Shown here: positions 54,566-63,729 of the stretch, one piece after another
How positions within the stretch are numbered: the first letter of the stretch is position 1
Layout of the letters: every line of letters begins with the position of its first letter
Notes under the pieces: generated by a model
Seen by the model: the letters and a program-made list of their open reading frames with translations, nothing else
What the model was told of the DNA's origin: nothing
Databases searched by the model: none
Assembly (NCBI RefSeq): GCF_003260195.1
Contig: NZ_QEIH01000007.1
Coordinates: forward strand, 186,001 to 250,000
Reading direction: 5' to 3'
From: Lutibacter citreus
Lineage (GTDB): Bacteria > Bacteroidota > Bacteroidia > Flavobacteriales > Flavobacteriaceae
Length of the DNA stretch: 64,000 bases
Position numbers and translations under genes: made by a program

Positions 54566-54640
54566 TTTATTGTTGTGGTATATTTTTAACAATATTTAAC
54601 ATTCATTTTGTACTTTAGCACTATAAATAGCTATTACGGT

Positions 54641-56269
54641 ATGGATATCAACTTCAATAAAAACGAAGACTATAACAAACTTCAACTCAAAGAATTAAAA
54701 AAGAAACTTCTAAAAGTTTACAAAGGTGGTGGAGATGTTAGAATTGAAAAACACAAGGCAAAAGGTAAATTAACTGCGAGAGAACGTATTGATTATCTTT
54801 TTGATAAAGACAGTGATTCTATTGAAATTGGAGCCTTGGTTGGTGATGAAATGTATAAAGAGCATGGTGGTTGTCCTTCTGGTGGTGTTGTTGTAAAAAT
54901 TGGGTATATTAAAAGTAAACAATGCATAGTTGTTGCAAATGATGCAACAGTAAAAGCTGGTGCTTGGTTTCCAATTACAGGAAAAAAGAATTTAAGAGCA
55001 CAAGAAATTTCTATAGAGAATAAATTACCTATAATATATTTGGTAGATAGTGCTGGTGTTTACCTGCCTATGCAAGATGAAATTTTCCCAGATAAAGAGC
55101 ATTTTGGAAGAATTTTTAGAAATAATGCAGTTATGAGTAGTATGGGAATTACACAAATTTCTGCGGTTATGGGAAGTTGTGTTGCCGGTGGAGCTTATTT
55201 ACCTATAATGAGCGATGAAGCAATGATTGTTGACAAAACTGCTAGTATTTTTTTAGCAGGAAGTTATCTTGTAAAAGCCGCCATTGGTGAAAGTATTGAT
55301 AATGAAACTCTTGGTGGAGCTACTACTCATTGCGAAATTAGTGGTGTTACTGATTATAAAGCTAGTGACGATAAAGATGCATTAGACAAAATTAGAAACA
55401 TAGTAGATAAAATAGGTGATTTTGATAAAGCTGGTTATAACCGTATTAAATCTAAAAAACCGACAGAAGATCCAAATGAAATATTTGGAATTTTACCAAA
55501 AACAAGAACAGATCAATATGAAACAAGAGAAATAATTAAACGTATTGTTGACAATTCTGAAATTGAAGAATACAAAAAAGACTACGGTAAAACTATAATT
55601 TGTGGGTATGCTCGTATTAATGGTTGGGCTGTTGGTATAGTTGCAAACCAACGTAAAGTTGTAAAAAACGGTAAAAAAGAAATGCAATTTGGAGGGGTAA
55701 TATATTCTGATTCTGCTGATAAAGCAACACGTTTTATAGCTAATTGTAATCAGAAAAAAATTCCTTTAGTGTTTTTACAAGATGTTACTGGTTTTATGGT
55801 TGGAAGCAAAAGTGAACACGGTGGAATTATAAAAGATGGAGCCAAAATGGTAAATGCAGTGAGTAATTCTGTGGTTCCTAAATTTACTATTATTATGGGG
55901 AACTCATATGGAGCAGGAAATTATGCCATGTGTGGAAAAGCTTATGATCCTAGATTAATTGTTGCCTGGCCATCCGCTAGACTTGCTGTTATGGGTGGTG
56001 CACAAGCTGCAAAGGTTTTATTACAAATTGAAAAAGCTTCATTAAAAAAGAAAGGTGAAGAAATTACTGAAGAAAAGGAACAAGAGATTTTAGCTTCTAT
56101 TCAGAAAAAATATGATGATCAAACCTCTCCTTATTACGCAGCTGCTCGTTTATGGACAGATGGAGTAATTGATCCTTTAGATACTAGAAAATGGATTAGT
56201 ATGGGTATTAAGGCTGCAAACCACGCTCCTATTGAAAAACAATTTAATCTTGGAATAATACAAGTTTAA
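54641..56269 (+). CDS. Acyl-CoA carboxylase beta subunit (carboxyltransferase)
   Basis: The 542-residue protein has the fused carboxyltransferase domains: GKLTARERIDYLFD, GGCPSGGVVVKIG, VDSAGVYLPMQDEIF, MGSCVAGGAYLP, GGATTHCEISGVTD and, in the second half, FLQDVTGFMVGSKSE, GNSYGAGNYAMCG and WPSARLAVMGG. This matches propionyl- or methylcrotonyl-CoA carboxylase beta chains; the substrate cannot be chosen by eye. I took ATG 54641; a frame from TTG 54608 adds 11 residues and overlaps the predicted promoter. The biotin-carrying subunit is not in the window. Confidence 0.9.
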   Translation: MDINFNKNEDYNKLQLKELKKKLLKVYKGGGDVRIEKHKAKGKLTARERIDYLFDKDSDSIEIGALVGDEMYKEHGGCPSGGVVVKIGYIKSKQCIVVANDATVKAGAWFPITGKKNLRAQEISIENKLPIIYLVDSAGVYLPMQDEIFPDKEHFGRIFRNNAVMSSMGITQISAVMGSCVAGGAYLPIMSDEAMIVDKTASIFLAGSYLVKAAIGESIDNETLGGATTHCEISGVTDYKASDDKDALDKIRNIVDKIGDFDKAGYNRIKSKKPTEDPNEIFGILPKTRTDQYETREIIKRIVDNSEIEEYKKDYGKTIICGYARINGWAVGIVANQRKVVKNGKKEMQFGGVIYSDSADKATRFIANCNQKKIPLVFLQDVTGFMVGSKSEHGGIIKDGAKMVNAVSNSVVPKFTIIMGNSYGAGNYAMCGKAYDPRLIVAWPSARLAVMGGAQAAKVLLQIEKASLKKKGEEITEEKEQEILASIQKKYDDQTSPYYAAARLWTDGVIDPLDTRKWISMGIKAANHAPIEKQFNLGIIQV

Positions 56270-56284
56270 ATAACTTACAAAATA

Positions 56285-56318
56285 AAAAACTCCCAACTTT
56301 TCAGTTGGGAGTTTTTTT
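56285..56318. terminator. Bidirectional terminator between the carboxylase and GH3 genes
   Basis: ACTCCCAACT (56289-56298) pairs perfectly with AGTTGGGAGT (56303-56312) around a 4-base loop, with A and T tracts on both sides. It can stop the carboxylase transcript and the converging agar operon. Confidence 0.88.
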
Positions 56319-56368: not shown

Positions 56369-56446
56369 GTCATCCTAAATTTATATCAGAATCTCCTCCA
56401 GTTGACTGCTGGTTGTTATGAGAACCCGAAACAGGTTCAGGTTGAC
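56369..56446. repeat. REP-like inverted-repeat element
   Basis: The left arm starts GTCATCCTAAATTT at 56369 and the right arm ends CAGGTTGAC at 56446. The two 27-base arms pair imperfectly around about 24 bases. The GTCATyCTGAA...TCAGAATCT pattern resembles short repeats that I have seen scattered between flavobacterial genes. There is no coding potential. Only one copy is visible in the window. Confidence 0.5.
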
Positions 56447-56487
56447 ATAAATTATACTTTTAAGACAAACTCTTTTTATATTTTAAC

Positions 56488-58689
56488 TTATCTCAATCTA
56501 AAATTTTCTGATTGAGGAGTCGCAGCACCTAATCTTTCACTCAATGCTGAAGGTGAAGAATTACCTACAATAACTTTGTAATCACCTTTTCTCCAAACTT
56601 TTTCTCCTTCTGAATTAATAACTTTTAACTCATTAGCTAAAACCTTAAATTCAACAGTTTTTGTTTCACCTTTTTTAAGTGAAATACGTTTAAAACCTTT
56701 TAAACTAGTTAAAGGTAAATTATCAGTATTTACTAAAGGACTGATATATAATTGGGCTACTTCATCAATATCAAAATTACCTGTATTTGTTACCTCAACT
56801 TGAACATTTAATTCATCTTTACTTTTTAGTTTTTCTTTATTTAAAGTAATGTTTTTAAATTCAGTTGTTGAATATGTTAAACCAAACCCAAATGGAAACA
56901 TTGGCTCTTCTTTCATATACTTATACGTTCTTCCTTGCATAGAATAATCGTCATAGGCAGGAAGTTGAGCTATACTTTTTGGAAATGTAATTGGTAAATG
57001 TCCTGATGGAGAAACATTTCCAAATAAAACATTTGCAACAGCTGCACCACCTTGCTCTCCAGGGTACCAAATTTGTAAAATTGCATCGCAATCATCTTCA
57101 ACATCTACTAAAGAAATTGGGCTTCCACTTGCCACTACTAAAACTATTGGTCCTTTTTTATTTTTTGCTAATTCTTTTATATAATGAATTTGATTTTCAG
57201 GTAATTTTAAATCTACCTTATCCCCTATATCTTGAGAGGCAATTGCATCAACTTCTTCACCTTCTCTATCGGCAGTTAAACCAACCACACAAATAGTTAC
57301 ATCAGAATCTCCAGCAACAATTGGTGCATAATTTTTCGGGTTTATATTTTTATGAAATGGTAATGCTCCACTTCTATAATTTAATGACGTTCCTAATGAA
57401 ACAACATCAGCCACACCTTCTAAAATAGTAACCATATTTGAGCTCACACCATAATAACTTCCCATTAACATATCTGCTGAATTTGCAAAAGGACCTGTTA
57501 AATAAGGAATTTTAATATCTTTAGGTAAAGGCAATAAGTTATTCTTGTTTTTTAATAATACTATAGATTTTTCAGCAGTTTCTAATGCTAATTGAATATG
57601 CTCATCACTATGAATTTCTTCAACACCTAATTTTAAATAAGGATTCTTATTGTCTTTATCAAACATTCCTAATCTAAAGCGTGTTTTAAATAATTGCTTT
57701 GTTCTATTATTTATAAGTTCTTCTGTAATTAAACCTTTTTCTAAAGCCTCCGTTACGTGTTTATATGTATTACCACAATTTAAGTTTGTTCCTGCTTTTA
57801 AAGCAATTGCTGCTGCCTCAACCGGAGTCTTCACGTATTTCATTTTATATGTAATACCACCTATTGCACCACAATCTGAAGTTATATAACCATCAAACCC
57901 CCAAGTATCTCTTAAAACTTCTTTTAACAAATATGGACTTGCAGCTGCTGGTTTTCCGTAAACTGCATTATATGCAGCCATTACACCTTCAACTTTACCT
58001 TCTTTTACTAACGCTTCAAATGCAGGGAAATAAGTTTCATATAAATCTTGTTTATTAGGCTCAGCATTAAACGTGTGTCTAATACTTTCAGGTCCTGAAT
58101 GAACAGCAAAATGCTTTGCGCAAGCCGCTGTTTTTAAATAATTAGGATTATCACCTTGTAAACCACTTACAAAAGCCACACCCATTTTAGACATTAAAAA
58201 AGGATCTTCACCATACGTTTCTTGACCTCTTCCCCAACGTGGATCTCTAAAGATATTTACGTTTGGAGTCCAAAAAGTTAAACCTGCATATTTACTATGG
58301 TTTCCCATACTTTGTGAAACTGCATATTTAGCTCTTGCCTCATCAGAAATTGCTGATGCTACACGTTTTGCCAATTCAGGATCAAAGGTTGCACCTAATC
58401 CAATACCTTGAGGAAAAATTGTTGCTTTTCCATTACGAGCAATACCGTGTAAAGCTTCGTTCCACCAATCGTAATCTGGAACATTTAAACGGTCTATTGC
58501 TGGTGCAGAATTTACTAACTGACCCACTTTTTCTTCTAATGTCATTTGAGACACTAAAATATCTACTCGTTTTTCTATTGAAAGTGAAGAATCTTGAAAA
58601 GAAAAATCTACTTCTTGCGCATTCATTTTTAGTTGACTTACTCCACAAACAATTAGAAATACTAAAATTTTGTAACTTATTTTATTCAT
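56488..58689 (-). CDS. GH3 beta-xylosidase/beta-glucosidase-type enzyme, exported
   Basis: The 733-residue protein has a signal peptide ending MNA-Q. The GH3 domain has YDWWNEALHGIARNG, FWTPNVNIFRDPRWGRGQET, KHFAVHSGPE and the nucleophile region YITSDCGAIG (D272). A C-terminal GH3 domain and an Fn3-like domain (about 630-715, with VTNTGNFDIDEVAQLYIS) follow. The WWNEALHG opening is typical of the xylosidase-type GH3 group. It is the last gene of the agar operon, so beta-galactosidase-like or mixed exo activity on agar or co-occurring glycans is possible. Confidence 0.9.
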   Translation of the reverse strand: MNKISYKILVFLIVCGVSQLKMNAQEVDFSFQDSSLSIEKRVDILVSQMTLEEKVGQLVNSAPAIDRLNVPDYDWWNEALHGIARNGKATIFPQGIGLGATFDPELAKRVASAISDEARAKYAVSQSMGNHSKYAGLTFWTPNVNIFRDPRWGRGQETYGEDPFLMSKMGVAFVSGLQGDNPNYLKTAACAKHFAVHSGPESIRHTFNAEPNKQDLYETYFPAFEALVKEGKVEGVMAAYNAVYGKPAAASPYLLKEVLRDTWGFDGYITSDCGAIGGITYKMKYVKTPVEAAAIALKAGTNLNCGNTYKHVTEALEKGLITEELINNRTKQLFKTRFRLGMFDKDNKNPYLKLGVEEIHSDEHIQLALETAEKSIVLLKNKNNLLPLPKDIKIPYLTGPFANSADMLMGSYYGVSSNMVTILEGVADVVSLGTSLNYRSGALPFHKNINPKNYAPIVAGDSDVTICVVGLTADREGEEVDAIASQDIGDKVDLKLPENQIHYIKELAKNKKGPIVLVVASGSPISLVDVEDDCDAILQIWYPGEQGGAAVANVLFGNVSPSGHLPITFPKSIAQLPAYDDYSMQGRTYKYMKEEPMFPFGFGLTYSTTEFKNITLNKEKLKSKDELNVQVEVTNTGNFDIDEVAQLYISPLVNTDNLPLTSLKGFKRISLKKGETKTVEFKVLANELKVINSEGEKVWRKGDYKVIVGNSSPSALSERLGAATPQSENFRLR

Positions 58690-58712
58690 TTTATTCTATT
58701 TATCCTTAATAT

Positions 58713-59951
58713 TTAATTCTTGTAAACAAATTTAAATTCATCTGTTACAATCGCTTTTTTCTCGTTTGGTTGTCTAACATAAATTCGAACAACATAAGTT
58801 TCGTTATTTTTTAATTTGTTATTCAACTTTAATTGAAAATCTTTATTTCCAAACCCAGCATAAGCAGTATGTTTTGCTTGAAGCACTGACTTTTTATTTT
58901 TAAACACCTTAATTGAAACTTCTCTATCTACATTAGACATATATGAGTAGCTTAAATCTATATTTTTTTCTGAAGTAATTTCAGCTGGTTTATTATTGAA
59001 ATTAATTTTATCATTGAAAATTTTTAAATCTTCTGTTCCGTTTTTTGAAACTTTCTCGTCAATATCAATTAAATTGTAAACTCTCACCCAATCGTAATAA
59101 CATGTATTTTTTGTTGGATCAGCCAATTCTTCATCATTTGGTAATTTAATCCAAGGAAAAGGATACGTTTCAGAAACCATATTTAATCCCATTGTTTTAT
59201 TAAATGGTTTTTTAGTAATGGCATCGTAAAAATTAACAGTTTTAACCTTTCTATCATCTAAATAATAGCTCACCTTACTTTCATTGTGCCACCAACCACC
59301 ATAAGTATAAAAATCTTCTGAAGGCATTGTTTCAGTTTCAATTTTAGATTGTGGCGCACGATAATCATGTCCTTCACCTTCACAGTCTGTATACCAATAA
59401 TGAGAATTAGAGTTCATTCCTTTGGCAAAATATTTACCCTCAAAATCTCCTTCTCTCCCAATACATTCTTGAAAATCTAATTCTAACCCATATTTATCAT
59501 TATCACAATCTGCTGGTCCTTCTGAACTTCCTCTTGTTGACATCCAAAAGGTTGTAGACATCGTGGTTTTAGCAGCCTTGAATTTACACTCGTAATACCC
59601 AAAATAAGCATCTGTAGTTTTAGAAACTACTGCGCCACCAGCAATGTTATAAATTCTTTTTGTTCCATCCTTTTTTAATTGAATAGAATCTTTCTCCAAT
59701 TTTTTTCCAGTAATAGACATGTACCCATTCCCTACTTTTACTTGAGAAGGTAAAAATACTCCCGGTTCTCTACCACTCCAGTTTGGGTGGTAATCATACC
59801 ATTTTGTAGCATCTAATTTGTTTCCATTAAATTCATCAGAAAATTTTGCATTTAACACCCATCTTTTACCTACTGGTGGATCTGGTGGATCTGCTCTCAA
59901 AACTGAAGTCATTAAAGAAACAACTAAAAGTGTTATTAGCTTTTTATACAT
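58713..59951 (-). CDS. GH16 agarase/porphyranase-type endo-hydrolase
   Basis: The 412-residue protein has a signal peptide (residues 1-20). The GH16 domain (about 30-290) shows the active-site motif E157-L-D159-F-Q-E162 (ExDxxE), preceded by STTFWMSTR and followed by WYTDCEGEGHDYR and YDWVRVYNL. It should cut beta-1,4 bonds with retention in agar or porphyran; the choice is inferred from the GH117 neighbour. Residues about 310-410 form an extra beta-rich domain, perhaps carbohydrate-binding, without a clear type 9 sorting signal. It is one base from the GH117 gene. Confidence 0.87.
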   Translation of the reverse strand: MYKKLITLLVVSLMTSVLRADPPDPPVGKRWVLNAKFSDEFNGNKLDATKWYDYHPNWSGREPGVFLPSQVKVGNGYMSITGKKLEKDSIQLKKDGTKRIYNIAGGAVVSKTTDAYFGYYECKFKAAKTTMSTTFWMSTRGSSEGPADCDNDKYGLELDFQECIGREGDFEGKYFAKGMNSNSHYWYTDCEGEGHDYRAPQSKIETETMPSEDFYTYGGWWHNESKVSYYLDDRKVKTVNFYDAITKKPFNKTMGLNMVSETYPFPWIKLPNDEELADPTKNTCYYDWVRVYNLIDIDEKVSKNGTEDLKIFNDKINFNNKPAEITSEKNIDLSYSYMSNVDREVSIKVFKNKKSVLQAKHTAYAGFGNKDFQLKLNNKLKNNETYVVRIYVRQPNEKKAIVTDEFKFVYKN

Positions 59952-59952
59952 T

Positions 59953-61230
59953 TTACTTGTTTTTTAACGCTTTATTTTCTTCACCAATTCTTTTTTTCTG
60001 TTTACCATTTAATCCCAATTTATAGTAATATTCTGGTCTATGGTATACATGTGTTTTTTTCATATCAGGATCATTAACATCTAAACTTAAATCACAGTCA
60101 AAACGTGCTAAAACTGCGTGATTCGTAGTCCATCCATTTACTGCCGTAAAATGTGAAATCCCCCAAGTAATACCTTTTCCATATTTAGTATCTGTAAATG
60201 CATCTGGAATAAAAGGTCCTCCTGCATTTGGCATATCTGCTGTAATTGAAGCGATGTTAAAGTTTACACCATCTTTTGAATATTGAACTGTATTATGTTC
60301 GTTACCATCTCTAATAACCAATGCTGCAATTCCTTCTTTAAAAGGAAATAATGTAGTCTCATGACCTGAACTAATAACTGGATTTTGAGGATGTTTTGTA
60401 AACGGTCCTAATGGGTTATCAGCAGTTGCTAATCCTTGCATTCTAATTAAATTAGGCTGTCCATTAGAATCTGACTTATAATACAAGTAAATTTTCCCCT
60501 TATAAACCATTGGATATGGATCGTGAATTGAAAATTGATCCCACTCTCCTTCTGCTCCATTTGGAATTACAATTTTATTATAAGGTGTCCAAGGTCCATC
60601 AGGTGAATCAGCATAAGAAACAGCAACAGGGCAATCATCACCACGTTTTCCGCTAGCTTCCATAAACCCTTGGTAATACAAATAGTATTTCCCTTTCCAC
60701 TTTAAAATATCTGTAGTAGCAACTGATCTCCAACCTACATTTGGTTTTTCTGGTCTTGGTACAGCAACTCCTTGTTCTTCCCAAGTAAAACCATCTTCAC
60801 TGGTTGCATAAAAAATATCACATAAATCCCAATCGCTTGAAGGAATTACGTCTGTACATTTTTCTGCACCTTGAGGTGGTGTTGGAGTTTCTCTATGCGT
60901 GTACCAAACATAATATTTACCATTTTCAAAAATTACTTTTGAAGGATCTCTACGTGTAATTGTACCATCATGATTGTTATAATCTAACCCTTTTAATTCA
61001 GTATATTTAAATTGAGAATACAACTCATTATCTTGCGGACGAGGAGCCATATATTGCGTATAATTACGTTCCATAGCCGCACTTGTTTTAATGTTCGGCT
61101 TTTCATTTGGAAACTCATAAGGAAAAGTTCCTTCTTGCAATTCTTGTGTTTGTGCTTGTTGTGCTTCTTCTTGTTGCTTTGGTGAACAAGAAACTATTAG
61201 TAATGTTACTAAAATTAATAAATACTTCAT
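59953..61230 (-). CDS. ahgA: GH117 alpha-1,3-(3,6-anhydro-L-galactosidase), neoagarobiose hydrolase
   Basis: The 425-residue protein has an N-terminal lipobox LLIVSC-S (C15), so it is probably a lipoprotein. The five-bladed beta-propeller sequence closely resembles characterised GH117 enzymes: RRDPSKVIFENGKYYVWY (D95), SVATTDILKWKGKYYLYY, FSIHDPYPMVYKGKIYLYY (D237) and VISSGHETTLFPFKEG (H290, E291). It removes 3,6-anhydro-L-galactose from the non-reducing end of neoagarobiose and longer neoagaro-oligosaccharides. It lies in an operon with GH16, the likely producer of those oligosaccharides. Confidence 0.93.
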   Translation of the reverse strand: MKYLLILVTLLIVSCSPKQQEEAQQAQTQELQEGTFPYEFPNEKPNIKTSAAMERNYTQYMAPRPQDNELYSQFKYTELKGLDYNNHDGTITRRDPSKVIFENGKYYVWYTHRETPTPPQGAEKCTDVIPSSDWDLCDIFYATSEDGFTWEEQGVAVPRPEKPNVGWRSVATTDILKWKGKYYLYYQGFMEASGKRGDDCPVAVSYADSPDGPWTPYNKIVIPNGAEGEWDQFSIHDPYPMVYKGKIYLYYKSDSNGQPNLIRMQGLATADNPLGPFTKHPQNPVISSGHETTLFPFKEGIAALVIRDGNEHNTVQYSKDGVNFNIASITADMPNAGGPFIPDAFTDTKYGKGITWGISHFTAVNGWTTNHAVLARFDCDLSLDVNDPDMKKTHVYHRPEYYYKLGLNGKQKKRIGEENKALKNK

Positions 61231-61233
61231 ATG

Positions 61234-62793
61234 TTATAATTTTGCTTGTTTTTTATATTTTCTAGGAAATTTATTTATTGGTTTAATTTGAATGTTTTTA
61301 TAATAACTTTCAGCAGCTTCAGATTGAATTTGAATTTTTCCACTTTCAATTGGAGTTGTTTTTCCTCCAATATCATATCTAGCATTTTTAATAACATTTA
61401 CAACATGTCCGTTTACAACATGCATACTAGTTCTTCCAACACAAATAATTTCAATAGTATTCCACTCTCCATTTGGATTTTCATATAACTTACTTTTTGA
61501 AGCTTGCCCATCCTCAAATCCTTCTGCCCATTTTAATGGTGTTAACTTCCCTTTTGGATTGTAAACAAAATAAGGCTTTCCATTTTCTCTTAATAATTTA
61601 TCAACTGTAACATCTCCATAAACATCGTTTAACGCAATAAAATCCCCACAATCTCCTTCTTGAATTTGACATTCTAAACTACTCATCCAAACATTCCAAA
61701 ATGCACCATGAGGTCCATTACAATGGTATAGAATCCCGTTATCTCGTTTACTGCTTAAACGTGGAGCCCATTTTTTTTCGCCCCATTTAAACTGTGCTTT
61801 AAAATGATAATTACTATATTCTTCTTTTGATGTTAAACCTCCATAAATTTCACCAGTTATATGAAGTACTGTTTCTCCATTTTCTTTAATTGTTGAAAAT
61901 ACATTTTTAGGATCGTTATTAACTCCAAGTGGAGTGCCAGTTTTACCATCTTTACTTTTTTCAATCCCATCTAAATCAACTGAAATATGAGGAACTCCCA
62001 TAAATTTATCCCATTTAGAAAGACTTGTATCTAAAAGATCTTCCCAATCTTTATTCATTTCAACGTTAGTTCTACTTGCTGCCCAATTTACTCCTGCAAC
62101 TACATGTTTTATATAAACAGGGTTGAAAAAAATTTCTTTAGTATGCCCCATTCCTGTATAAAAGATTCTTCCTCCTTCATAGTATTGATACCAAGCAATA
62201 GGATGATTTTTCTCCATTTGCTTTCCTTCGTATGAACTTTCATCTAAAGTTAACAACACATTTACTCTTGGTAAAACTTCATCTTTAAAATTGTACCATT
62301 CATCTTTTACCGTAAAAGTATCTTCAAAATGTTTTATTGAAGGATGATTACAAGTATGGTTAACATCCATAGTTGCTGTTTGCGTTTTTGGATGATTTAT
62401 AAACTGAGCGCCTATCATTTGGTGGTACCAAGGCCAATTATATTCTGTATCTGTTGCAGAATGAATTCCCACAAAACCTCCACCATTATTTATGTATTTT
62501 TTTAATGCCTCTCTTGAATCTTTATCTAAAACTTCAAGAGTTGTATTTAAAAAGATTAAAACTTCAACATCTTTTAAATTTGCATTTGAAATATCAGCTG
62601 TTTTTTCAGTTAATCTAACTTTCCAATTTTCTTTGGCGCCCCATTTTTTTATCTGTTCCTGACCTGTTTCAATAGATTTATGTCGCCAACCACTTGTTTT
62701 AGAAAATACTAAAACATCAATTGCTTTCTGAGCATTAACTTCAGAAATAAGCAACACAAAAACTAGTATTGTTATAAGTTTTGAATAATTCAT
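61234..62793 (-). CDS. ThuA domain fused to DUF1080 domain, exported
   Basis: The 519-residue protein has a signal peptide ending VNA-Q. The ThuA domain (about 25-245) has VLVFSKTSGWRHKSIETG, NNGGGFVGIHSATDTEYNWPWY and GHTKEIFFNPVYIKHV. The DUF1080 domain (about 260-505) has HFKAQFKWGEKKWAPR, DNGILYHCNGP and GEWNTIEIICVG; DUF1080 is a concanavalin-like fold linked to 3-keto-glycoside hydrolysis. It is the first gene of the agar operon, 3 bases before GH117. Its activity here is unknown; cleavage of oxidised or anhydro sugars is an attractive guess. Confidence 0.87.
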   Translation of the reverse strand: MNYSKLITILVFVLLISEVNAQKAIDVLVFSKTSGWRHKSIETGQEQIKKWGAKENWKVRLTEKTADISNANLKDVEVLIFLNTTLEVLDKDSREALKKYINNGGGFVGIHSATDTEYNWPWYHQMIGAQFINHPKTQTATMDVNHTCNHPSIKHFEDTFTVKDEWYNFKDEVLPRVNVLLTLDESSYEGKQMEKNHPIAWYQYYEGGRIFYTGMGHTKEIFFNPVYIKHVVAGVNWAASRTNVEMNKDWEDLLDTSLSKWDKFMGVPHISVDLDGIEKSKDGKTGTPLGVNNDPKNVFSTIKENGETVLHITGEIYGGLTSKEEYSNYHFKAQFKWGEKKWAPRLSSKRDNGILYHCNGPHGAFWNVWMSSLECQIQEGDCGDFIALNDVYGDVTVDKLLRENGKPYFVYNPKGKLTPLKWAEGFEDGQASKSKLYENPNGEWNTIEIICVGRTSMHVVNGHVVNVIKNARYDIGGKTTPIESGKIQIQSEAAESYYKNIQIKPINKFPRKYKKQAKL

Positions 62794-62825: not shown

Positions 62826-62833
62826 CAAATATA
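62826..62833 (-). promoter_or_regulatory. -7 promoter element of the agar operon
   Basis: TATATTTG on the minus strand lies 32 bases before the ATG at 62793. It is the only good -7 match upstream of the operon; the TTG element is not convincing. Confidence 0.5.
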
Positions 62834-63012: not shown

Positions 63013-63729
63013 ATGGGAAGAGCATTTGAATTTAGAAAAGCTAGAAAAATGAAACGTTGGTCTGCAATGGCAAAAACCTTTACACGTATTGGTAAGGATA
63101 TTGTAATGGCTGTTAAAGAAGGTGGTCCTAGCCCTGAAACTAACGCACGTTTAAGAGCTGTTATTCAAAATGCAAAAGCGGCGAATATGCCGAAAGAAAA
63201 TGTAGAACGTGCAATTAAAAAAGCAAGTGATAAAGATACTGCCGATTATAAAGAAGTTTTATTTGAAGGTTACGCACCACACGGAATTGCTGTAGTTGTT
63301 GAAACTGCAACAGATAACAACAATAGAACTGTTGCAAATGTAAGAGCGGCTTTTAGTAAATGTGATGGTAATATGGGAACATCTGGATCGGTTGTTTTTA
63401 TGTTTGACCATACTTGTAATTTTAGAATTAAAACCGAAGATTTAAAAATGGATCTTGAAGAGTTTGAATTAGAATTGATAGATTTTGAAGTTGAAGAAGT
63501 TTTTGAAGATGAAGATGGTATATTAATTTACGCTCCGTTTGAACAATTTGGTGCAATTCAAAAATATTTAGAAGAAAATAACTTAGAAATTCTTTCTTCT
63601 GGTTTTGAACGTATTCCTACAACTACAACTACTTTAAATGAAGAAGAGCAAGCTGATGTAGATAAATTATTGGAGCGGCTTGAAGAAGAAGATGATGTGC
63701 AAAACGTATATCATTCAATGGAAGCATAA
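63013..63729 (+). CDS. YebC/PmpR family protein
   Basis: The 238-residue protein has MGRAFEFRKARKMKRW and MAKTFTRIGKDIVMAVKEGG, then NMPKENVERAIKKA and YAPHGIAVVVETATDN, the conserved core of YebC/TACO1. The family was named as transcriptional regulators, and recent work on family members points to a translation role at proline-rich stalls. The MGRAFE opening (instead of MAGHSKW) is the Bacteroidota variant. It is followed 2 bases later by a zinc-ribbon protein, cut by the window edge. Confidence 0.92.
   Translation: MGRAFEFRKARKMKRWSAMAKTFTRIGKDIVMAVKEGGPSPETNARLRAVIQNAKAANMPKENVERAIKKASDKDTADYKEVLFEGYAPHGIAVVVETATDNNNRTVANVRAAFSKCDGNMGTSGSVVFMFDHTCNFRIKTEDLKMDLEEFELELIDFEVEEVFEDEDGILIYAPFEQFGAIQKYLEENNLEILSSGFERIPTTTTTLNEEEQADVDKLLERLEEEDDVQNVYHSMEA

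Follow-up and report, generated by a model that had tools for sequence, protein, structure and literature searches.

A putative red-galactan satellite operon led by a ThuA-DUF1080 fusion gene in Lutibacter citreus

What does a ThuA-DUF1080 fusion protein do at the head of an operon of galactan-degrading enzymes? The question is raised by a 64,000-nucleotide stretch of the Lutibacter citreus genome (hereafter the window; G000:C33:186001-250000, contig NZ_QEIH01000007.1; the genome comprises 5.11 Mb in 35 contigs), in which four open reading frames (ORFs) lie head to tail on the minus strand and encode a ThuA-DUF1080 fusion, a GH117, a GH16 and a GH3 protein. A sequence-only reading had taken them for a minimal agar-degradation operon. 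The families, their order, the strand and the lead of the ThuA-DUF1080 gene are confirmed, as is the tight packing, although the gaps that it put at 1-24 bases measure exactly 3, 1 and 23. To our knowledge, agar and porphyran breakdown has been described as hydrolytic (GH16/GH86, GH117, GH2/GH50) plus an anhydrogalactose pathway. We find that the operon very likely has a galactan role and that it appears to be a satellite of a large red-galactan system encoded elsewhere in the genome.

Enzymes encoded by the operon

The second gene (59953..61230, minus strand; 425 amino acids) is firmly assigned, on sequence grounds, to GH117, the exo alpha-1,3-(3,6-anhydro)-L-galactosidase family. Its GH117 matches in the PDB are 4u6d (E 5e-216), 4u6b (1.5e-163), 3p2n (1.4e-63) and 4ak5 (6.8e-60); the nearest, 4u6d, aligns over residues 27-418. 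We take 4u6d and 4u6b to be the Z. galactanivorans GH117 paralogues Zg3615 and Zg3597. The protein carries the SxAxxR motif at residue 50 (SAAMER), and its RRDPS (93), HDP (236) and GHE (289) segments align with 4ak5. These segments contain the Asp, His-Asp and His-Glu residues, which were the ones compared from the BpGH117 list in the consulted part of PMC8152962; that list also names Trp-128, Thr-165 and Gln-180. Pfam alone would label the protein as GH43-like.

The GH16 protein (58713..59951, minus strand; 412 amino acids) is nearest to porphyranases. Four porphyranase entries lead its PDB ranking: the beta-porphyranase 4awd (1.6e-49), 3juu (3.1e-37), 4ate (7.2e-33) and 3ilf (2.6e-31). The next GH16 entry is weaker by about 17 orders of magnitude; other GH16 structures, agarases and kappa-carrageenases among them, match from 1.1e-14 to 1.4e-5, and the first entry named agarase is 3wz1 (6.5e-12). 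On this ranking we reject the reading of the protein as an agarase. The ExDxxE motif is present (ELDFQE at residue 157), and an extension of about 110 amino acids follows the part that matches GH16 structures. No Pfam model is passed. The consulted part of PMC5849685 terms the top match, BpGH16B, an agarase, whereas the PDB name of 4awd is porphyranase.

The last gene (56488..58689, minus strand; 733 amino acids) encodes a predicted GH3 exo-beta-glycosidase, in which PF00933, PF01915 and PF14310 exceed the Pfam cut-offs and both the N- and C-terminal domains of the family are found. Its best PDB entries are xylosidases (2.1e-110), and its best NCBIfam model is the xylosidase Xyl3A at 789 bits, below the cut-off of 1250; no NCBIfam cut-off is passed.

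Galactan degradation genes elsewhere in the genome

No SusC/SusD pair, sulfatase or GH2 is found in the operon, which therefore lacks the SusC/SusD pair of a polysaccharide utilization locus (PUL). The earlier statement that these genes are missing thus holds for the locus; it fails for the genome, where 21 SusD genes (22 match rows, two within one frame) and many sulfatase and GH2 genes lie elsewhere. The search for other agar genes that the sequence-only reading had proposed recovered eight more GH117s, GH86, GH2 and a locus on contig C1 that looks like an anhydrogalactose pathway. In all, GH117 occurs at nine places of 57-100% identity including the operon copy, with further ones at 41% or less, and ten places are related to GH16. 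The GH117 paralogues of 57-100% identity lie on G000:C30 and C31 (L002-L008).

The stretches of C30 chosen for surrounding known matches cover 215 kb and 134 ORFs, which were labelled by blastp against labelled references (E<=1e-15). They include 30 sulfatase-like, 11 GH2-like, 10 GH29-like, 7 GH117-like, 4 GH3-like, 3 GH16-like and 2 GH86-like ORFs. One GH86, confirmed by Pfam with both porphyranase domains, has a SusD match (C30:261 kb) at a distance of about 10 kb. Because the genome holds these large red-galactan clusters and 21 SusD genes, the operon is best described as a satellite of a large system. A minimal stand-alone agar system is ruled out by the whole-genome searches and the fetched C30 stretches. 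The label of a minimal agar-degradation operon is further contradicted by the porphyranase ranking of the GH16 and by the separate occurrence, in relatives, of ThuA-DUF1080 and of the other three genes.

The C1 locus encodes an IclR regulator, alcohol and short-chain dehydrogenases, an aldehyde dehydrogenase, an MR_MLE protein, an aldose epimerase, a GH2 and a GH117. It resembles the ahgA cluster as described in the consulted part of PMC5613140, and is named here by that likeness alone. The aldehyde dehydrogenase passes the general NCBIfam model PRK10090 (among the 25 of 44 matches listed), and the MR_MLE protein passes no NCBIfam cut-off. The C1 locus looks more like an anhydrogalactose pathway than the operon does. 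It had been suggested that ThuA-DUF1080 could act on 3-keto or anhydro-sugars; nothing specific was found for the anhydro-sugar role, and the predicted fold described below favours the 3-keto part.

Association of ThuA-DUF1080 with galactan genes

Relatives of ThuA-DUF1080 were drawn from the best 80 of 89 matches, in 79 loci with up to 10 kb of flank; the two closest named ones in this set are both from Lutibacter, at 82% each. The DUF1080 tree was restricted to the 62 of 90 rows whose identity reaches at least 45%. Sulfatase, SusC, SusD, GH29, GH2, hybrid two-component system (HTCS) and DUF5060 labels were given to cluster representatives by eye and spread by blastp, and the labelled representatives and the main genes of the R. 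agariperforans locus L029 were confirmed by Pfam.

The DUF1080 of the window falls in a clade of 15 rows (99/83). GH117, GH86 or a related GH16 lies in the flank of 8 of the 15 rows versus 3 of the 47 outside, counts that give no clean probability because the rows are related by descent and several loci have a partial flank. One of the three outside rows is the second DUF1080 of L030, whose first DUF1080 is inside the clade. On the tree the galactan-neighbour label requires 6 changes; the mean over shuffled labels is 10.2, and none of 500 shuffles is as low.

Locus L029 of R. agariperforans combines sulfatase, GH29, GH2, GH86, GH117, ThuA-DUF1080, DUF5060, SusC and SusD genes (by Pfam; the GH117 by 69% identity). 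Its GH117 is directly followed by the fusion gene, an adjacency shared with the Lutibacter operon, while L029, unlike that operon, is a full PUL. Close ThuA-DUF1080 or DUF1080 genes near galactan genes also occur in L030, and in the Maribacter/Cellulophaga loci L047-L049 and L057. Three further genomes stand outside the 62-row tree: G248 has a sulfatase, then in succession a GH3 (57%), ThuA-DUF1080 and a GH117-like gene (39%), and further a DUF1080, a GH29 and a Pfam-confirmed GH86; G237 has a GH29, a GH3 (55%) and ThuA-DUF1080; and the ThuA-DUF1080 locus of G180 includes DUF5060 and HTCS genes. In R. versicolor (L050) a GH3 of the operon type (54%) precedes a DUF1080. In all, a related GH3 stands beside ThuA-DUF1080 or DUF1080 in three genomes in addition to the rows counted above.

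The association is also seen at the level of genomes. Among 397 genomes of the family, a ThuA-DUF1080 or DUF1080 relative is present in 21 (E<=1e-75) and a GH117 in 25 (E<=1e-100); the two occur together in 11, where about 1.3 would be expected. GH117 is thus present in 11/21 carriers versus 14/376 others, and in 5/11 when fusion-type matches alone are counted. This suggests that ThuA-DUF1080 often, though not exclusively, accompanies galactan genes and is hardly a random passenger.

The carboxylase-yebC site

The operon forms an islet between two core genes, a carboxyl transferase of PCC/ACC type (54608..56269, plus strand; PF01039) and, on the opposite side, a yebC/TACO1 family gene (63013..63729, plus strand; PF01709). 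A single TATATTTG, a Bacteroidota -7-like element (62826..62833, minus strand), precedes the start of ThuA-DUF1080 by 40 bases, in agreement with the single element noticed earlier; at the density seen in the window, this 219-bp strand should hold about 0.18 TAnnTTTG. The same octamer precedes the ThuA-DUF1080 orthologue in L042 and in L174. The four genes would be co-transcribed from one promoter. The bidirectional terminator of the earlier reading corresponds to a hairpin at 56284..56317, between the carboxylase and GH3 stops, with -21.5 kcal/mol, a z of -7.3 and T-runs on both strands. The hairpin itself is strong, but it follows the convergent carboxylase gene at a distance of 15 bases, whereas the GH3 stop is about 170 bases away. 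Behind GH3, at 56369-56447 of the window, there is a REP-like intergenic element with inverted halves, which is also present in L174/L026; one similar stretch was found in L158. Scanning the window for Rfam families at the gathering threshold and for tRNAs gave no matches.

We examined the site in 22 of 38 genomes of the genus (the yebC flank of 20, plus the window and L. oricola, L042 = G403). The carboxylase and yebC genes directly adjoin in 17 of the 22, about 55-70 bases apart. All four genes occupy the site in G000 and G431. L. oricola has only ThuA-DUF1080 there, and G402 only the ThuA half, a 242-amino-acid ORF (L159 8901-9626) that stops where DUF1080 would start. G401 has a different gene of 298 amino acids (L161 8004-8897) with no Pfam family. 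Genes may have landed at this site more than once.

These relatives also provide the case for the best-surviving rival explanation, that of accidental neighbours: a movable GH117-GH16-GH3 trio would have settled downstream of a ThuA-DUF1080 gene already resident there and would borrow its promoter, with no common pathway. ThuA-DUF1080 lies beside yebC without galactan genes nearby in L042, L027 and L028; two Polaribacter loci that have it next to yebC lack GH117. With the lone ThuA half of G402, these occurrences suggest residence at the site. Conversely, the L. oricola orthologues of GH117 (93%), GH16 (86%) and GH3 (86%) stand together, without ThuA-DUF1080, in a galactan island behind a TPR protein. 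A matching island in G432, the genome of L026, lacks the GH117-GH16-GH3 segment. The trio is also found without ThuA-DUF1080 within about 4 kb of YchF in G447 and, with DUF5060 between GH117 and GH16, within about 4 kb of YchF in G002, where a TPR protein and a Gfo/Idh/MocA oxidoreductase lie upstream. The trio and ThuA-DUF1080 are each found alone and are thus separable modules, two in number, which come together in certain lineages. The genome counts point the same way in part: GH117 is absent at 1e-100 from 10 of the 21 genomes of the family that have a relative and, at E<=1e-40, from 10 of 20 carriers selected among the 79 loci. Moreover, the genomes behind the association counts are related, and part of the signal could come from those with an abundance of degradation genes of many kinds. 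All these observations tell against a functional tie between ThuA-DUF1080 and the trio.

Against accident stand the members of the same DUF1080 clade near GH117, GH86, GH16 or GH3 in Reichenbachiella, Maribacter/Cellulophaga, L030, G237 and G248, together with the genome-level co-occurrence of ThuA-DUF1080 relatives and GH117. The copy of L. oricola (L042), which has no trio, groups in the DUF1080 tree with the four-gene L026 (99/92), and the window is sister to both. Because L042 nests with L026 and the window lies outside, the four-gene state may be older; because the window is sister to one copy with the trio and one without, gain of the trio, for instance by a single insertion after an older ThuA-DUF1080 gene, is indistinguishable from its loss. 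We regard accidental neighbours as unlikely, though a rival to be taken seriously.

TPR proteins (TPR_12; L207 16984-18609, L118 13027-14622 and L215 10507-12111) adjoin the GH117 module or ThuA-DUF1080 in three genomes and are absent at the window site. Their C-terminus appears HTH-like by eye, and they are perhaps regulators of the module.

Predicted fold and chemistry of the ThuA-DUF1080 protein

The gene that leads the operon (61234..62793, minus strand) encodes 519 amino acids and is the single ThuA-DUF1080 fusion in the genome. Both of its domains exceed the Pfam cut-offs: ThuA (PF06283, 236 bits) covers about residues 27-238 and DUF1080 (PF06439, 89.8 bits against a cut-off of 26.8) about 273-504. 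On another contig, L145 6885-16063 (G000:C32, 228000-247999) has DUF1080 and ThuA as two separate genes, in the company of a GH42-like gene, two SASA esterases, a GLAA-B-like protein and sulfatase-like neighbours.

In the AlphaFold model (pLDDT 87.1, pTM 0.85) the ThuA half resembles 4jqs (Z 22.5) and 4e5v (Z 21.0). The DUF1080 half is closest to 9fbe, a 3-keto-glycoside eliminase/hydratase with 2-hydroxy-3-keto-glucal (Z 17.5), followed by 8v31, 8tda, 8rr2 and BT2157 (3osd) at Z 16.3-16.4; most of these entries are titled 3-keto-glycoside eliminase/hydratase or 3-keto-2-hydroxy-glucal hydratase. The chains of these hydratases have 243-264 residues and no ThuA part, and identity stands at 16-17%. 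Across 22 aligned sequences the DUF1080 half shows many invariant polar residues, for example H269, D294, H330, R345 and D351, and further E374, Q376, Q378, D381, D384 and E492. Taken together, the predicted model suggests that ThuA-DUF1080 is probably a 3-keto-sugar enzyme.

A source of C3 oxidation is possibly provided by an operon on C12 (C12:15259-20708; L175 7260-12709), which encodes AP_endonuc_2, GFO_IDH_MocA, DUF1080, Gluconate_2-dh3 and GMC oxidoreductase proteins and resembles a 3-keto-glycoside pathway. A precedent is the Caulobacter lactose route (LacABC and DUF1080), in which fitness data make the DUF1080 gene important for lactose use. The excerpts consulted of that study (PMC9007349) propose that the DUF1080 protein hydrolyses 3'-ketolactose, a beta-1,4-galactoside, that is, that it acts on a C3-oxidised terminal beta-galactose as we suggest here. 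The dehydrogenase is encoded nearby in Caulobacter, whereas in Lutibacter the GMC/Gluconate_2-dh3 pair lies on another contig.

Several results speak against this chemistry. The operon itself holds no C3 dehydrogenase of the GMC/LacA or Gfo/Idh/MocA type. The C12 DUF1080, Gfo/Idh/MocA and GMC proteins score below all NCBIfam cut-offs (four of the five proteins were scanned). A phmmer search with the DUF1080 half finds no PDB relative, and the DUF1080 profile matches only 3imm in the PDB, over 38 positions (E 0.0024). The margin in Z is small, with a galectin-like B. subtilis protein at 15.5 and CBM66 modules at 14.4-14.8, which leaves room for a lectin role. DUF1080 genes may also be dispensable, because deletion of BT2157 caused no growth defect on raffinose-family sugars according to the consulted part of PMC11501099.

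The CBM66-like matches suggest a second rival, in which the DUF1080 half would bind galactan or act as an endo-hydrolase instead of a 3-keto enzyme, with ThuA as an accessory domain. This finds further backing in the DUF1080 protein THTE_1561, cited as an endo-xanthanase/lichenase in the excerpts of PMC9007349, and in the DUF1080 glycosidases proposed in those of PMC5673643. It is opposed by the nearest folds with a stated function, which are 3-keto-glycoside hydratases/eliminases with Z 16.3-17.5 versus 14.4-14.8 for CBM66, and by the invariant polar residues. We consider a binding or endo-hydrolytic domain improbable.

Discussion

We propose that this is an accessory periplasmic operon whose ThuA-DUF1080 protein acts on C3-oxidised galactan oligosaccharides, an explanation to which, taken as a whole, we give an even chance. 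Taken separately, the 3-keto step, given a galactan role, falls somewhat short of that. What we infer here are the substrates, the 3-keto step and the enzyme that would partner it. The periplasmic location would follow from the N-termini as read by eye, lipobox-like in GH117 (LIVSC) and signal-peptide-like in ThuA-DUF1080. Oligosaccharides of galactan would enter through SusCD transporters encoded elsewhere, and the porphyranase-like GH16 would shorten them. GH117 would remove alpha-linked (anhydro)-L-galactose at the non-reducing end, and GH3 a beta-linked sugar. A dehydrogenase encoded elsewhere, with the C12 operon as the candidate, would oxidise the terminal sugar at C3, and ThuA-DUF1080, made from the same transcript as the three glycosidases, would cleave or hydrate the resulting 3-keto sugar.

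One of the closest described systems is the agarose PUL of Bacteroides uniformis NP1 (consulted part of PMC5849685), which shares an endo-acting GH16 and a GH117 exo-acting from the non-reducing end, and for which exo-hydrolysis is likewise placed in the periplasm. That PUL has SusC/SusD, GH86 and GH2 in the locus, which Lutibacter has elsewhere in the genome; the Lutibacter operon, unlike the PUL as described there, includes a GH3 and is led by ThuA-DUF1080. The same source states that agaro-oligosaccharides end in beta-1,4-galactose once GH117 has acted. A more speculative extension, which we think rather unlikely, is an oxidative 3-keto route in red-galactan degraders, in which the terminal beta-galactose (or methylated galactose) exposed by GH117 on agaro- or porphyro-oligosaccharides undergoes C3 oxidation and ThuA-DUF1080 then removes it, replacing or working beside a GH2 beta-galactosidase. 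The literature searched, mostly open-access, contains no publication that joins DUF1080 with ThuA or GH117 with DUF1080, and no role of ThuA-DUF1080 in agar use, as the sequence-only reading had supposed.

An operon for carrageenan or another galactan rather than agar or porphyran is very improbable. In its favour, kappa-carrageenase is the sole NCBIfam model matched by the GH16 (37.8 bits against a cut-off of 350); against it, the closest relatives of the operon GH117 are GH117 structures and the best porphyranase match of the GH16 (1.6e-49) exceeds its best kappa-carrageenase match (3.3e-6) by about 43 orders of magnitude.

The islet shows, within one genus, a galactanase module that is present or absent at a fixed site of the core genome, and that one species carries in its main galactan island instead. 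The recurrence of the ThuA-DUF1080 clade in red-galactan loci points to an uncharacterised step, one that would be testable with a single enzyme and known oligosaccharides.

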